Positions 19,725 through 26,230 of a stretch of DNA of 64,000 nucleotides are shown here, in pieces; within the stretch, counting starts at the first letter, position 1, and every line of letters begins with the position of its first letter. Position numbers and translations under genes: made by a program. Below the pieces are notes generated by a model. The model saw only the letters and a program-made list of their open reading frames with translations. It was not told where the DNA came from and made no database searches. The stretch spans positions 124,001 to 188,000 of the forward strand of contig NZ_ATHI01000026.1 in assembly GCF_000422245.1 (NCBI RefSeq). The letters run 5' to 3'. The DNA comes from Alkalidesulfovibrio alkalitolerans DSM 16529 (GTDB taxonomy: Bacteria > Desulfobacterota > Desulfovibrionia > Desulfovibrionales > Desulfovibrionaceae).

Positions 19725-20018
19725 TCAGCCGTCGATGAAGTTCGTCAGCACCTGCAGCGTCTTGTCCATCTTGCGCTTGGCCTCGGCCGGGTCGCCGCCT
19801 TCCATGGTCTTGTCGTAGCAGGTGGAGACGTAGCGTTTGAGGATGAGCGAGGTCGTGGACTTCAGGGCCGAGCGTACCGCCCGGACCTGGATCAGGATGT
19901 CCTCGCACTCCTTGCCGTCGCTGACCATGTTCTGGATGCCGCGGATCTGGCCTTCGATCTTGCGCAGGCGCGAGAGGACGTTTCTCTGGATTTCGTCGAG
20001 TTCTGGCTTGGCGTTCAT
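19725..20018 (-). CDS. CsoR/FrmR-family repressor of CstR (persulfide-sensing) type
   Basis: 97 residues, all helical, DUF156/CsoR family. Cys38 and Cys67 are 29 residues apart, the spacing of the two reactive cysteines in this family. The histidine that CsoR uses for Cu(I), four residues before the second Cys, is replaced by Tyr63. A C-no His-C pattern is known from CstR, which senses per- and polysulfides by crosslinking the cysteines. The neighbours are rhodanese and sulfur-reductase genes, which supports sulfane-sulfur sensing. Candidate operators ATACCC-type are at 20266-20280 and 26333-26347. Confidence 0.82.
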   Translation of the reverse strand: MNAKPELDEIQRNVLSRLRKIEGQIRGIQNMVSDGKECEDILIQVRAVRSALKSTTSLILKRYVSTCYDKTMEGGDPAEAKRKMDKTLQVLTNFIDG

Positions 20019-20357: not shown

Positions 20358-20873
20358 TCATTCTGTGCCAAGAGGCCAATCCATGGTTCCCTCCACATAG
20401 CGGCGCACGTCCGTATATCCCAGGCGCGCAATCCAGCGCGCCCCGATCACGCTGCGCACTCATTGCGGCGAGCGGCAGTAGACGACCACCGTGCGTTCCT
20501 TGTCCGGACCGAGCAGCGCGAGAACGGCCGCCTGCTTGTCCGGTGCGATCCCATGCGCCTCGCCTGGCTCGAAGGGCATGTGCAGCGCGCCCTTCGGGTG
20601 GCCTTGGGTGAACTCGTAGTCTGGTCGGGTGTCAACCAGGAGTGGCGGCTCGTCCGAGAGCAGCAGCGCGCGCAATTCCTCGGCCCCGATGAGACGGTAG
20701 CCGTCCCTTTCGGCCTGCCAGGCGGCGCGCGGGAAGAGTGTCTCCGGGGATTTCGGGGAAGGCGTGTTGTCTTGCGCCCGCAAGGCGGCGGGCGCGAGTG
20801 TGGCGGCCAGCACCAGGGCGGCCAGCACCAGGGCGGCCAGGACGAGGGGGGAGGCGGGTGAGAGCCGGGTCAT
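20358..20873 (-). CDS. Candidate selenocysteine-containing rhodanese (in-frame UGA 20460-20462)
   Basis: 171 residues if UGA is read as Sec138. A signal peptide or anchor (LVLAALVLAALVLAATLAPA, residues 10-30) is followed by one rhodanese domain with LLVDTRPDYEFTQGHPKGALH. The active loop is YCRSPQ-UGA-VRS. After the UGA the same frame continues with a normal rhodanese end, GARWIARLGYTDVRRYVEG, to a TGA at 20358. Cys133-x4-Sec138 matches Cys-x4-Cys in both N-terminal domains of the next-door rhodanese. A GGCGCGC/GCGCGCC hairpin with a UGGAUU loop starts 17 bases after UGA. If UGA is a true stop, this is a 137-residue protein truncated just after the catalytic Cys. Confidence 0.72.
20422..20443 (-). 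promoter_or_regulatory. Candidate bacterial SECIS element
   Basis: On the minus strand GGCGCGC and GCGCGCC pair perfectly (7 bp plus one G-U), closing the six-base loop TGGATT. The loop begins 25 bases after the UGA and has G at its second position. This meets the usual bSECIS geometry (apical loop about 16-37 bases after UGA, a G in the first two loop positions). The region also encodes GARWIAR, and high GC could produce such a stem by chance. Confidence 0.55.
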
Positions 20874-20935
20874 GCGGGGCCTCCTTGGGGCGTCGGCCGG
20901 GGGGCCGGGAAGGTGATCCCGGCCCCCGCGTCCAG

Positions 20936-22048
20936 CTACTTGTTGGGCTTGATGGTGTAGCTGTTGTCCGGACCGTAGTCGATGGTGCCCTCGATGTAGT
21001 AGGCGTTCTTCATGTCCGCAGCCTTGTCCATGATCAGGTAGAAGGCCTCGCCCGAGCGCGCGCCTGTGTTGCACACGAAGACCACGGGCTTGTCGCGGGG
21101 CAGCTCGCCCAGGCGTCCCGCGAGCTGGCTGCCGGGGATGTTCACGGCCTGGGGAATGTGGCCCTTGGCGTATTCGTCCGGGTCGCGCACGTCCACGACC
21201 ATGATGCTGCCTGGGTTCTCGGCCAGGGCCTTCTGGAAGACGGCCACGTCCATGATGCCGTCCTCGCCTCCCGCGATTTCCACGGACTGGGCCGCGCCGA
21301 ACTTCTCCTTCCAGGCTGGGTAGCCGGCCTCGAAGACCTTGACCGTCTCGTAGCCCATGCGCTTGGCCGCGATGGCCGCGTCGTGCGAGAGCTTGCAGGT
21401 GAATCCTTCGCAGAAGAAGACGACCTCGGAGGCCTTGTCTGCGGGCAGGTAGCCTTTGCGCGCGTCGAACTGGCTTGCGGGCATGAACATCGCGCCGGGA
21501 ATGGAGCCGTCGAGGAACTTGGTGATGGGCCGCGAATCGGCCAGGAACATGGGCTCGCCCTTCTCGATCTTCTCACGCACGTATTCGATGCCCACGGATT
21601 CGTACACGCCCGCGTGGGTGATCCAGTCGGGGTAGCCGCCGGGATAGACCACGACGTTGGTGTAGCCGAGCTTTTCCGCCTTGCGCGCGGAGTTGTGCGA
21701 GAGCTTGCAGGCCGCGCCCTCGCAGTAGAAGATCAGGAGCGCGTCCTTCTCCTTGGGCAGTTCGGCCACGCGCGCGTCGAATTCGCTGTCCGGGATGCTT
21801 ACCGATGTCGGGATGTAGCCCTTGGCATGCTTGGTCATGTAGGGCCGCGAGTCGATGATCATCACCCCGTCGAGCTTGGGCATCTTCACGTAGTTTTTGA
21901 CGAAATCGAAATCGACGATTTTGTGGAAGAAATAGTCCGGGACTTTTTCCGCCGCCCGGGCCGTTGCCGCTCCCTGGGCCATGAGGGCCACAGCCAGGAA
22001 AAGCGCGACGAGAAGAGGCGAAAGCCTTCTGTGCAGGGTCGTGTTCAT
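20936..22048 (-). CDS. Periplasmic triple-domain rhodanese
   Basis: 370 residues with a signal peptide (residues 1-33, ending ARAAEK). Three rhodanese domains follow. Domains 1 and 2 have an unusual active loop with two cysteines, CEGAACKLS (Cys109, Cys114) and CEGFTCKLS (Cys213, Cys218). Domain 3 has a classical loop, CNTGARSG (Cys326). Rhodaneses carry sulfane sulfur as a cysteine persulfide, so this protein may deliver or store sulfur for the adjacent molybdenum enzyme. The ATG at 22048 has GGAGG upstream. Confidence 0.88.
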   Translation of the reverse strand: MNTTLHRRLSPLLVALFLAVALMAQGAATARAAEKVPDYFFHKIVDFDFVKNYVKMPKLDGVMIIDSRPYMTKHAKGYIPTSVSIPDSEFDARVAELPKEKDALLIFYCEGAACKLSHNSARKAEKLGYTNVVVYPGGYPDWITHAGVYESVGIEYVREKIEKGEPMFLADSRPITKFLDGSIPGAMFMPASQFDARKGYLPADKASEVVFFCEGFTCKLSHDAAIAAKRMGYETVKVFEAGYPAWKEKFGAAQSVEIAGGEDGIMDVAVFQKALAENPGSIMVVDVRDPDEYAKGHIPQAVNIPGSQLAGRLGELPRDKPVVFVCNTGARSGEAFYLIMDKAADMKNAYYIEGTIDYGPDNSYTIKPNK

Positions 22049-22107
22049 ACATCCTCCGGTTGACAAGGCGCTCCTGGCCCCATGCCCGGCCGCGCCTTTA
22101 GCTTCGT

Positions 22108-22854
22108 TCAGTCGTCAAGCCGCTGCGGCACCACGCCATCCTCTCCGGCCGGGAGATGCCTGATCTCCTCGTGCCACAGGGCGTGGTGATGCGCGGCGTA
22201 GTCCTCGGGAACCCAGCCCGTGAACATGGAGCGGAAACCCGGCCGCTCCTCCGGGCTGATGGCCGCCATGTAGACGTGCACGAGCAGGCCCGCGAAGGTC
22301 AGAGCGGCGAATATCCAGTGCAACAGAATGGCCCAGGAGACGACGATCGTGGTCTCGGCCGAGAAGCCGAACTGCGACCAGACCATGATCAGGCCGGTCA
22401 CGGCCAGACCGAGCCCTCCGAACACGGCCGCCTGGGCGAAGGCCTTCTGGCCCATGTTGTAGAAGCCCTGCGGGGGAAGCTCAGGATTCATGCCCAGCGC
22501 GCGCAGGGGCTTCTCGCCCAGGGTCATGAGGACCATCTTCTTGAACATCCAGGAGACGTCGCGGGGCAGATCGACCGTGAAGACGCGCCTGAGAAAGAAA
22601 CGCGCCCCCCTGAAGTTGCGGATCAGGTAGAAGAGCAGGCCCATGATCCAAAGACCGCCGAGGATCTCGTGGATCAGGAGCAGGTTGCCGCCTCCGCCGG
22701 TCAGGGAACGCACGGCTTGGGGATACCAGCCGCCGAGGGGGCTCAGCTCGGGCTTGAACAGGGCCAGACCCGTGAACATGAGCAGGATCCACAAGACGGC
22801 GTTGAACCAGTGGATGGCGATGTCCAGCCGCGAGTGGCGTTGATACTTCTTCAT
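22108..22854 (-). CDS. Cytochrome b membrane subunit of the Mo-oxidoreductase
   Basis: 248 residues with four main hydrophobic helices and haem-ligand histidines (HSRLDIAIHWFNAVLW, LLLIHEILGGLW, ILLHWIFAALTFAGLLVHVYM). It resembles the gamma subunits of formate dehydrogenase and thiosulfate reductase (FdnI/PhsC type), which connect the enzyme to the quinone pool. It starts three bases after the FeS-subunit stop. Confidence 0.9.
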   Translation of the reverse strand: MKKYQRHSRLDIAIHWFNAVLWILLMFTGLALFKPELSPLGGWYPQAVRSLTGGGGNLLLIHEILGGLWIMGLLFYLIRNFRGARFFLRRVFTVDLPRDVSWMFKKMVLMTLGEKPLRALGMNPELPPQGFYNMGQKAFAQAAVFGGLGLAVTGLIMVWSQFGFSAETTIVVSWAILLHWIFAALTFAGLLVHVYMAAISPEERPGFRSMFTGWVPEDYAAHHHALWHEEIRHLPAGEDGVVPQRLDD

Positions 22855-22857
22855 GGC

Positions 22858-23613
22858 CTACTCCTTCTTCGTGCCGTGCCCGCCGTGGGCATCGCGCTCC
22901 ACCAGGAAGCGTCGCGCGGCCATGGCCGCCACGCCCAGGCCCGCAAGCCCCACAAGGCCGGAGAGGCCGGGCAGAGCCCAGCCCGTCAGGGCTCGCATGG
23001 GCGACCGGATCTCGGCCCGCACGGGCCAGTCCAGGGGCGCGGTGTCCGCCAGATAGAACATGTTGGGTTCGGTGTCCGAATCCGCGCGCACCACCCGGAC
23101 GACCCGTTCGCGGTTGGCCTGGAGCAGGCGCGAGGCCTCGGAATCGGGGTCGGCGAGATCGCCAAAGACGCGGGCCTTGGTGGGGCAGGTGTCCACGCAG
23201 GCGGGCTGTAGCCCGGCGGCCCTGCGCTCGGCGCAGTAGTCGCACTTGTCAGCGACCTTGAGATCGGGATTGCGGAAGCGCGCGCCGTAGGGACAGGCGG
23301 GCAGACAGTTGCCGCAGCCAATGCACAGCCGCCTGTCGATGACCACCACGCCGGTTTCCTTGTCCTTGTAGGTCGCGCCCGTGGGGCAGGCGTCCACACA
23401 CAGCGGCTTGTCGCAGTGCATGCAGGCGCCGGGCTGGAAATGACCCCGACTGCCCGAGCCCGGACGCGGGATCACGGCCTTGGCCTTGATCCAGTTGCGC
23501 GAGTACCCTCTGGGCGCGTTGTTTGCGACCTTGCACGAGGCCACGCAACCCTTGCAGTCCATGCACTTGGAGGAGTCTATGACCATGGCCAGTTGGTGCT
23601 TCGCGGGGTTCAT
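22858..23613 (-). CDS. Four-cluster ferredoxin subunit with C-terminal membrane anchor
   Basis: 251 residues, PsrB/PhsB/DmsB-like. Cysteine groups are CMDCKGCVASC, CMHCDKPLCVDAC, CIGCGNCLPAC and CDYCAERRAAGLQPAC, enough for four [4Fe-4S] clusters. A hydrophobic stretch near residues 214-236 (LPGLSGLVGLAGLGVAAMAA) probably anchors it. There is no Tat signal of its own, so it is likely exported with the Tat-bearing catalytic subunit. Its ATG overlaps the stop of the catalytic gene by four bases. Confidence 0.9.
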   Translation of the reverse strand: MNPAKHQLAMVIDSSKCMDCKGCVASCKVANNAPRGYSRNWIKAKAVIPRPGSGSRGHFQPGACMHCDKPLCVDACPTGATYKDKETGVVVIDRRLCIGCGNCLPACPYGARFRNPDLKVADKCDYCAERRAAGLQPACVDTCPTKARVFGDLADPDSEASRLLQANRERVVRVVRADSDTEPNMFYLADTAPLDWPVRAEIRSPMRALTGWALPGLSGLVGLAGLGVAAMAARRFLVERDAHGGHGTKKE

Positions 23614-25838
23614 GAGACGCCTCCCGCCTTCGTTACCGTGACGAAGGTCTCGTGCATGGCCGCGTTGCCGGTCACGGCGTCCACGCGGCTTTCAAGGACC
23701 GCCGCGATGGCCAGGCCGTTGCCGTAGACGTTGGAAAGGCCTTTCGAGATCGAGCCGAAGCCGGTGTCGGTGTAGACCGTGTCCTCGCGGATGGCCTCGG
23801 TCACCTTCAGGGCCAGCGTACCCTCGCCCACGGCGCTTTTAACGCGCACCTCCATGCCGTCCGAAAGTCCCAGGCGCGCGGCCGCGTCCGGGTGCATCCA
23901 CAAGGAGTTGCTGGGCATGAGCTCGTGCAGCAGCGCGTTGTTGGTGGTGCTGCCTTGGGTCACCAGGGCGTTTCTGCCCACGACCATGCGGAAGGTTCCT
24001 TGCGGCGGCGAGGCGGGTGGCGTGTAGACGGGCAGGGGATCGAGCCCGGCCTGCGGATAGCGCTGGTTCATGAGCTCGATCTTGCCCGAACGCGTGCGGT
24101 AGCCGATGTTGTCATAGATGCCGTAGACCTTGGATGGGTTGTAGTAGACCCCGTCGCGCTCAAGGACCTCGGCCGCGCCGGGCAGGTCGGCGAGCTGCTT
24201 GGCGCGGTACTCCTCGATGGTGAAGTCGAAGTACTCGCCCAGGTCCATGCGTCCGGCCAGCTCCTTCATGACCTCGAAGATGGGCCTGGATTCGTACATG
24301 GCGGGCACCACCGGGTCGCGCTGCACCACGCAGGCGCAGGCGCTCGAGCCCTGCAACGCTTGGCAAGGGTCCTTGCGCTCCAGGTAGGAGGGCATGGGCA
24401 GCACCAGGTCGGCCATCCAGGCGGTGTCGCTCATCTGGATGTCGGCCACGGCCATGAACTCCATGGCCTCGATCATCTTCATGGTCCTGGCCCGGTCCGG
24501 AGCGGTTTGCATGGGGTTGGTCTTGAACACGAACCAGCCCTTGACCGGGTAGGGCTCGCCCGCGATGACCGCGTCGCGCGTGTGCACGAAGGAGCCTTCC
24601 TCCTCGAACATCAGGGGCGCCATGTGGGCGTCCACGCGGTCGTCGGGGTTGTCGTCGTACCACGGGGCATGGATGGGCACGCCCTTGAGCCCCACCTGGC
24701 GCGCGGCCAAGAGCCCGCCCGGCCGGTCCCAGTTGGCCAGCAGGGCGTTGACGATGGCCGTGGAGCGGCGGATCTGGGTGGAGTTCTCGTAGTCCGAGGT
24801 GCGCCGCCCGGGGTAGATGAGCGATGCGGGCGCGGCGGCGGCCAACTCGCGCGCGATGCGGGCGATGTCCGGTCCCGGGATGCCGGTCTCGGCGGCGGCC
24901 CACTGGGGCGTGCAGTCGCGCACGTGCTCGCGCAACTCGTCGAGGCCGAAGGTCTTTTCCGCCACCCAGGCGTCGTCGTAGAGGCGTTCGTTGATGATCA
25001 CGTGGCACATCGCCAGCATGAAGGCCATGTCCGTGCCGGGGCGGATGGGCCACCACTCGTGCGCCATGGCCGCGGTCTTGGTGTAGCGCGGGTCCAGCAC
25101 CACGAGCTTGGCGCCCGAGGCCATGGCCTCGACCATGTCCATGGAGTCGGGCGTGACCAGGGCCTCGAAGCGGTTGGCCCCGGCCATGATCACGTAGCGC
25201 GAGTTGAGCACGTCGGCGAAGGGCACCTCGCCGAAGGTGTCCAGATAGGCGCGGTTGAGCGAAATCAGGCACAGCGATTCGTGCGAGGTGATGTTGAAGG
25301 AGCCGTAGGCCTCGGCGAAGCGGTGCACGAACTGCGACTGCATGTCCGCGCCCACGGAGAAGAGCATGCCGCAGCGGGTGTATTTCTCGCCGATCTCGCC
25401 GAGTCGCTCGACCAGGATATCCATGGCTTCGGTCCAGGAGATGCGTTTCCACTTGCCCTCGCCGCGCGCGCCCTGGCGCAGCAGGGGGTGCTTCAGGCGG
25501 TCGGGGTCGTAGAGTTGGGCGATGCCCGCCTGGCCGCGCGCGCAGAGCATGCCGCGCGACTTGGTGAAGTGGGGGTTGGGGTCGAGCTTGACCACCCGGC
25601 CGTTCTTCACGCGGGCAATGAGGCCGCAACGGTTGAAACACATGTCGCAGACGGAATAATGGGACTCAAAGGGCCCGCTGGCCGCGGCGGCGTGGGCATC
25701 GGCAGCCGAAAGGGGGCCTGGAATGCGGCCCGCCGAGACGACGGCCGCGCCCGCGCCCATGGTCAGACCCGCGGCCTTGAGGAAAGCCCGGCGTCCGGGA
25801 TCGAATCCGGCGGAGCGTGGGTTCTTGGTCGTGGTCAT
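23610..25838 (-). CDS. Molybdopterin oxidoreductase, polysulfide/thiosulfate reductase type
   Basis: 742 residues. Tat signal RRAFLKAAGLTMG shows periplasmic location. An N-terminal [4Fe-4S] site is formed by Cys64, 67, 71 and 99, followed by the bis-MGD domains. Cys190 in SHESLC is at the molybdenum-ligand position typical of PsrA/PhsA enzymes, which reduce polysulfide or thiosulfate. GGAGG precedes the ATG at 25838. The flanking FeS, cytochrome b, rhodanese and CstR-like genes point to a sulfur compound as substrate; tetrathionate or another oxyanion cannot be excluded. Confidence 0.88.
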   Translation of the reverse strand: MTTTKNPRSAGFDPGRRAFLKAAGLTMGAGAAVVSAGRIPGPLSAADAHAAAASGPFESHYSVCDMCFNRCGLIARVKNGRVVKLDPNPHFTKSRGMLCARGQAGIAQLYDPDRLKHPLLRQGARGEGKWKRISWTEAMDILVERLGEIGEKYTRCGMLFSVGADMQSQFVHRFAEAYGSFNITSHESLCLISLNRAYLDTFGEVPFADVLNSRYVIMAGANRFEALVTPDSMDMVEAMASGAKLVVLDPRYTKTAAMAHEWWPIRPGTDMAFMLAMCHVIINERLYDDAWVAEKTFGLDELREHVRDCTPQWAAAETGIPGPDIARIARELAAAAPASLIYPGRRTSDYENSTQIRRSTAIVNALLANWDRPGGLLAARQVGLKGVPIHAPWYDDNPDDRVDAHMAPLMFEEEGSFVHTRDAVIAGEPYPVKGWFVFKTNPMQTAPDRARTMKMIEAMEFMAVADIQMSDTAWMADLVLPMPSYLERKDPCQALQGSSACACVVQRDPVVPAMYESRPIFEVMKELAGRMDLGEYFDFTIEEYRAKQLADLPGAAEVLERDGVYYNPSKVYGIYDNIGYRTRSGKIELMNQRYPQAGLDPLPVYTPPASPPQGTFRMVVGRNALVTQGSTTNNALLHELMPSNSLWMHPDAAARLGLSDGMEVRVKSAVGEGTLALKVTEAIREDTVYTDTGFGSISKGLSNVYGNGLAIAAVLESRVDAVTGNAAMHETFVTVTKAGGVS

Positions 25839-25897: not shown

Positions 25898-26230
25898 CTA
25901 GTTGCACTTCGCCGGGGAGGGCGAGTCCTTGGCGAAGTCGTAGAGGTAGGAGAAGGTGTCCTTGACGTCCGCCTCGGTCATCTCGGCGGGCCATTTGTCG
26001 CGGCAAGGCAGGGCTGCCGCGTTCTCGAAGTGAGCCTTCCACTCGGCCTGCACCAGCGAACTCGGCGAGAGGTCCGAGGCGGTCTGGCCGTGGCAGGTGC
26101 GGCAGTTCTTGGTGTAAAGGTACTTGCCCTTGCGGGCGTTGCCGCCCAGGGTGTCGGCCGCGACGGCCAGTCCGACGGTGGCGGCCAGGACGAGGACGGC
26201 GAAGCCGCCGATGGTCGTGGTGCGCTTCAT
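25898..26230 (-). CDS. Periplasmic monohaem cytochrome c
   Basis: 110 residues. Signal peptide (about 1-25, ending GLAVAAD), one CRTCH haem site (Cys43-His47), and a possible Met ligand in PAEMTE. Class I cytochrome c size. First gene of the sulfur module behind the promoter at 26329-26357; 59 bases before the molybdenum subunit. Likely a periplasmic electron carrier for the complex. Confidence 0.88.
   Translation of the reverse strand: MKRTTTIGGFAVLVLAATVGLAVAADTLGGNARKGKYLYTKNCRTCHGQTASDLSPSSLVQAEWKAHFENAAALPCRDKWPAEMTEADVKDTFSYLYDFAKDSPSPAKCN

Follow-up and report, generated by a model that had tools for sequence, protein, structure and literature searches.

A predicted selenocysteine-containing rhodanese in a sulfur-handling operon of Alkalidesulfovibrio alkalitolerans

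The window, a stretch of 64,000 nucleotides from the genome of Alkalidesulfovibrio alkalitolerans DSM 16529, carries on its minus strand, from 20873 to 20358, a signal-bearing rhodanese frame with the sequence YCRSPQ-UGA-VRSVIGARWIARLGYTDVRRYVEG, closed by a second TGA. The ordinary list of open reading frames closes this frame at 20460, and standard gene callers would cut the protein at the UGA, with codon 137 as the last. When the UGA is translated as selenocysteine (Sec; U), the frame continues beyond residue 138 as VRSVIGARWIARLGYTDVRRYVEGTMDWPLGTE, 33 codons in all, and stops with TGA at codon 172. The initial annotation had described a frame of this kind, interrupted by TGA after YCRSPQ and resuming for 33 codons up to another TGA, and translation bears it out. 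It had also placed the UGA at the sixth position of the active-site loop, in the column where the adjoining rhodanese has Cys (CEGAAC, CEGFTC); alignment agrees. Read on the plus strand, 20358-20873 gives a meaningless translation, and the gene belongs to the minus strand, which the initial annotation had left unsaid. Coordinates are collected in Table 1.

Table 1. Features of the rhodanese locus and its surroundings, in window coordinates
Feature	Position	Strand	Basis or remark
Small exported cytochrome c	25898..26230	-	PF13442
Molybdopterin oxidoreductase, nearest family PhsA	23610..25799	-	Range is the stretch tested; start not fixed
4Fe-4S electron-transfer subunit (TtrB/NrfC/DsrO-like)	22858..23613	-	Profile matches
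Cytochrome b, PhsC/FdhC-like	22108..22854	-	PF01292
Triple-rhodanese protein, loops CEGAAC, CEGFTC, CNTGAR	20936..22066	-	Three PF00581 stretches; start codon uncertain
Shine-Dalgarno AAGGAGG, 6 nt before ATG	20880..20886	-	Direct reading of sequence
Predicted Sec-containing, signal-bearing single-domain rhodanese, 171 residues, Sec138	20358..20873	-	Translation with TGA=U; PF00581; AF2 fold
Start codon M1/ATG	20873	-	Direct reading
Cys133, rhodanese catalytic-position Cys	20475..20477	-	Invariant in family alignment A1
In-frame UGA, codon 138, sixth position of CRSPQU active-site loop	20460..20462	-	TGA/Cys codon in every family member
SECIS-like hairpin, 8 bp, loop UGGAUU (20435-20430), 16 nt after UGA	20422..20443	-	Folding energy, synonymous recodings, congener
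Terminal TGA stop codon	20358..20360	-	Homology in congener L012 likewise ends near here
CsoR/CstR-type repressor, 340 nt downstream	19725..20018	-	PF02583

The full-length product has PF00581 as its sole Pfam match (57.7 bits, cut-off 22.2), over residues 64-166 and so spanning the UGA. Its AlphaFold (AF2) model adopts a rhodanese fold that matches solved rhodaneses, with a pLDDT of 91.2. In this model a strand (129-132) leads into the loop (133-138), which is followed by a helix (139-150), and residue 138 sits at the junction of loop and helix. An export signal, with a hydrophobic signal helix at residues 9-33, is predicted from the sequence.

The gene closes an operon that encodes a molybdoenzyme resembling PhsABC/PsrABC together with a triple rhodanese. 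In order of transcription, this comprises a cytochrome c, the PhsA-like molybdoenzyme, an Fe-S protein, a cytochrome b, the triple rhodanese and, finally, the Sec-rhodanese. The thiosulfate reductase model NF012032 (PhsA) is the best family for the molybdoenzyme, at 553 bits, below its cut-off of 694. In most relatives, too, a gene for a multi-rhodanese protein whose loops are C-x4-C is found at a distance of ~0.9-1.6 kb from the UGA, generally on the upstream side, and genes for an Fe-S protein and a cytochrome b precede it in a Desulfovibrio sp. (L074) and in strain NaphS2 (L089). Near some family genes, motifs of the multi-rhodanese type occur with in-frame TGA of their own at loop positions (YUQNLAUP, L036; YCMNPGUR, L050; YCGGFTUG, L076; YCMNPAUR, L101). 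The Sec-rhodanese itself continues into an AhpC/TSA domain in many relatives; the window copy is without a fused reductase domain. The repressor gene downstream may be a separate unit. Its product contains Cys and no obvious metal-site His, and to judge from the sequence it would suit the role of a persulfide sensor.

A search of 149 related genomes yielded about 30 close members of the family, most with exactly one internal TGA, and in the translated homologues that TGA always falls in the U138 column. Named close relatives include Pseudodesulfovibrio, Salidesulfovibrio and other Desulfovibrionaceae; when named genomes were scanned, the family was extended by members from Pseudodesulfovibrio, Desulfarculaceae, Desulfobacteraceae, Desulfonatronospira and strain NaphS2. 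Among the 59 family members retrieved, some of which come from identical or almost identical genomes and so are not all independent, the U138 column holds TGA 52 times and Cys seven times, with no third residue. Eight further loci, missed by the search motif, all have Cys there. The alternation of Cys and UGA that the initial annotation proposed to look for in homologues is thus what the alignment contains. Cys133 is invariant in the same alignment (A1), and the motif ARWxxRLGYxxVxRYxxG, which includes the LGY helix and strand needed by any rhodanese, is conserved after the UGA. Compared with the congener (L012), the region downstream of the UGA has 7/7/15 changes at codon positions 1/2/3, a third-position bias, with 10 non-synonymous changes in the 33 codons. 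The initial annotation had also named resequencing to TGC or TGG as grounds for abandoning the idea; sequencing error is excluded, because the same UGA is shared by tens of independent genomes, including that of the congener, 62% identical.

The family tree requires at least five changes between Sec and Cys. Of the 32 genomes with the Sec form, 31 contain selA, and the lone exception is 77% complete. All six of the Cys-form genomes tested contain selA too, so loss of the machinery does not account for the Cys forms. In the host genome that machinery is complete in the four genes that the initial annotation had suggested seeking: selA (614 bits), selB (390 bits) and selD (346 bits), each above its curated cut-off, and selC, the gene for tRNA-Sec, at 88.8 bits and also called SeC by ARAGORN. 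The host selD (L070, C6:15265-16185) contains a single in-frame TGA, a feature also of Sec-containing selenophosphate synthetases.

Bacterial SECIS elements are described as hairpins that lie shortly after the UGA and have a G at the start of the apical loop, and the hairpin in the window fits this description. It consists of GGGCGCGC-UGGAUU-GCGCGCCU, includes one G-U pair among its base pairs, and has a folding energy of -16.6 kcal/mol, which is matched by 0.7% of random window positions. The loop begins 24 nt beyond the UGA, and its second and third nucleotides are G. When the peptide is recoded with synonymous codons, ~99% of the variants give a weaker hairpin (p=0.010), and the earlier report of a UGGAUU-looped hairpin shortly after the UGA holds, with 8 bp and a 16-nt spacer. 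The congener has a near-identical hairpin. Across the family, the excess in hairpin strength was modest and did not separate Sec from Cys members (mean z -0.98 and -0.85, respectively), and 13 of the Sec sequences matched no register among the three compared. One register displays paired third-position changes (G-C, A-T and C-G at +18/+30 after the UGA), a weak sign from rows chosen for pairing, and the ARWxxR motif is in itself biased towards palindromic codons. The SECIS evidence is good for the window gene, only moderate for the family, and weak as a family-wide test.

Since dozens of relatives keep the UGA in the same column, the gene is almost certainly unbroken and makes a genuine selenoprotein that belongs to a sulfur-handling operon. 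We consider it very probable that the host SelA, SelB, tRNA-Sec and SelD insert selenocysteine at the window UGA, directed by the hairpin just after it. The protein is probably a periplasmic sulfane-sulfur carrier in which Sec138 would resolve a persulfide on Cys133. Cys133 would acquire sulfane sulfur and hold it as a persulfide; the donor would be polysulfide, thiosulfate or the neighbouring rhodanese. Sec138, where the next helix begins, would then attack this persulfide, and the sulfur would be released, or passed on, as HS- or persulfide. A Cys133-Sec138 selenenylsulfide would be left behind, to be reopened by a periplasmic reductant; in relatives the fused, thioredoxin-like AhpC/TSA domain is the likely candidate, and in the TsoB proteins discussed below, the DsbD-like membrane part. 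Sulfur might pass to the PhsA-like enzyme or come from it. Gene context is the basis for the proposed substrate and for the direction of sulfur flow, both of which we infer with the PhsA match below its cut-off. We give the persulfide-resolving mechanism as a whole an even chance. For the best explanation in its entirety, namely Sec decoding, the operon setting and the proposed mechanism taken together, we estimate a probability of roughly 0.8.

The most serious competitor accepts the selenocysteine and assigns the protein another occupation: chiefly a thiol/selenol oxidoreductase or peroxide handler that uses C-x4-U as a redox pair, and not a sulfurtransferase. The AhpC/TSA fusions of relatives speak for such a role, as does TsoB, in which this loop is coupled with a DsbD-like part for electron transfer; many selenoproteins, moreover, are homologous to thiol oxidoreductases (PMC13188914). 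The rhodanese fold, the invariant Cys133 and the presence of a triple rhodanese and a PhsA-like enzyme in the operon speak instead for sulfane sulfur, and the two accounts overlap, persulfide resolution being itself a redox step. On balance we regard the oxidoreductase role as rather unlikely. Far less probable is that the protein handles selenium itself, for example by delivering reduced selenium to SelD via a perselenide on Cys133. A rhodanese domain does work with selenophosphate in tRNA selenouridine synthase, according to work cited in the reference lists of PMC1794560 and PMC2398784, and the host SelD appears to be a selenoprotein. Against this, the Sec-rhodanese carries a predicted export signal whereas SelD is cytoplasmic, selD lies on another contig, and the conserved neighbours are subunits of sulfur enzymes.

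It is very improbable that the TGA terminates translation, arose by sequencing error or marks a decaying gene, so that only a truncated rhodanese of 137 residues is made. TGA does serve as an ordinary stop elsewhere in the window, and the non-synonymous differences from the congener noted above could be read as decay; but TGA occupies the same column in 52 homologues from several orders, and is otherwise replaced by Cys, ARWxxRLGYxxVxRYxxG is kept beyond it, and the host has the sel genes. Reading of the UGA as another residue, by Trp suppression or recoding, has only the open frame in its favour and is extremely improbable, as the column is Cys or UGA and never Trp in the members seen, and UGA terminates elsewhere in the window.

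Returning to selenocysteine in a sulfur carrier, we tentatively picture a Phs/Psr-type sulfur operon of bacteria of the Desulfobacterota group with a dedicated rhodanese relay, in which the resolving Cys of C-x4-C has repeatedly become Sec in several neighbouring genes, as C-x4-U or U-x4-U. If this relay, to which we give slightly less than an even chance, is real, periplasmic respiration of sulfane sulfur or polysulfide would make recurrent use of selenium chemistry, and the C-x4-U rhodaneses would form an unlisted subfamily of selenoproteins. The relay apart, the Sec-rhodanese brings a widespread, single-Sec C-x4-U form into the catalogue of selenoproteins and places selenium within a conserved operon of the sulfur-respiration or disproportionation type. 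The natural Sec/Cys pairs at a single column, with at least five switches between them, offer a clean system for examining the benefit of selenium in persulfide chemistry.

Among known systems, Sud of Wolinella is a periplasmic rhodanese that feeds the polysulfide reductase PsrABC. The structure of this polysulfide-sulfur transferase, 1qxn, which bears the PDB name 'sulfide dehydrogenase', matches the family profile with an E value of 3.2e-6. Like the window protein, Sud is an exported rhodanese of a single domain; it is not known to contain Sec. The window operon differs in adding a triple rhodanese and a PhsA-like enzyme. The multi-rhodanese proteins with YCGGxxC loops, of which the upstream gene is an example, share the loop architecture as C-x4-C, which occasionally becomes C-x4-U or U-x4-U in relatives (L076 and L036). 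They differ from the Sec-rhodanese in having two C-x4-C domains and a third, CxxGxR-like domain, and the window copy is without Sec.

The closest comparisons are with other rhodanese selenoproteins. A 2026 review of 119 selenoprotein families and subfamilies includes five rhodanese forms, UxxS, UxxG, CxU, UxxG and UxxxxU, the last being TsoB (PMC13188914), and C-x4-U (CxxxxU) is absent among these five. None of the NCBIfam models reaches its cut-off with the Sec-rhodanese. The best match, to TsoB (NF045694, form 5), scores 89.1 bits, far below the 805 required for membership. TsoB has Sec in the same second loop column, and its sequence there, UVRSDSAARVAVxLGY, resembles UVRSVIGARWIARLGY of the window protein; it differs in that each of the two loop positions holds Sec and a DsbD-like membrane part is attached, where the window protein has Cys133 and no fusion. 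The host genome also contains one paralogous double-Sec rhodanese/DsbD fusion of the TsoB type (FYUAGLTUVRSDSAARVAVSLGY; L043, C11:68870-69310, minus strand), and the two TGA codons of this protein are conserved in many genomes of the phylum. Forms 1-4 (Table 1 of PMC13188914) have in common with the window protein a rhodanese domain and a predicted Sec. With form 3 (NF041203, CxU) the score is 18.8 bits where 115 are required, which places the Sec-rhodanese outside it. Form 1 (WP_010941598.1), compared by motif only, could overlap with C-x4-U, as U138-V-R-S reads UxxS. As a marker of Geobacter genomes for the comparison with form 1, ExtKL (NF040886) proved too widespread to be of use. Outside the family, C-x4-U occurs at the same loop column in ~10 rhodaneses across the phylum (L189-L194 and L196-L199; e.g. 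FYCQGFRUVLS, YCNGFKUSKS and FYCGGYTUKLS). Because of these loci, and of the UxxS reading, form 1 may include C-x4-U proteins. The column appears, from such sequences, to be a recurrent hot spot for the change from Cys to Sec, and the Sec-rhodanese is a variant of the known rhodanese selenoproteins, with a C-x4-U loop unlisted in PMC13188914.
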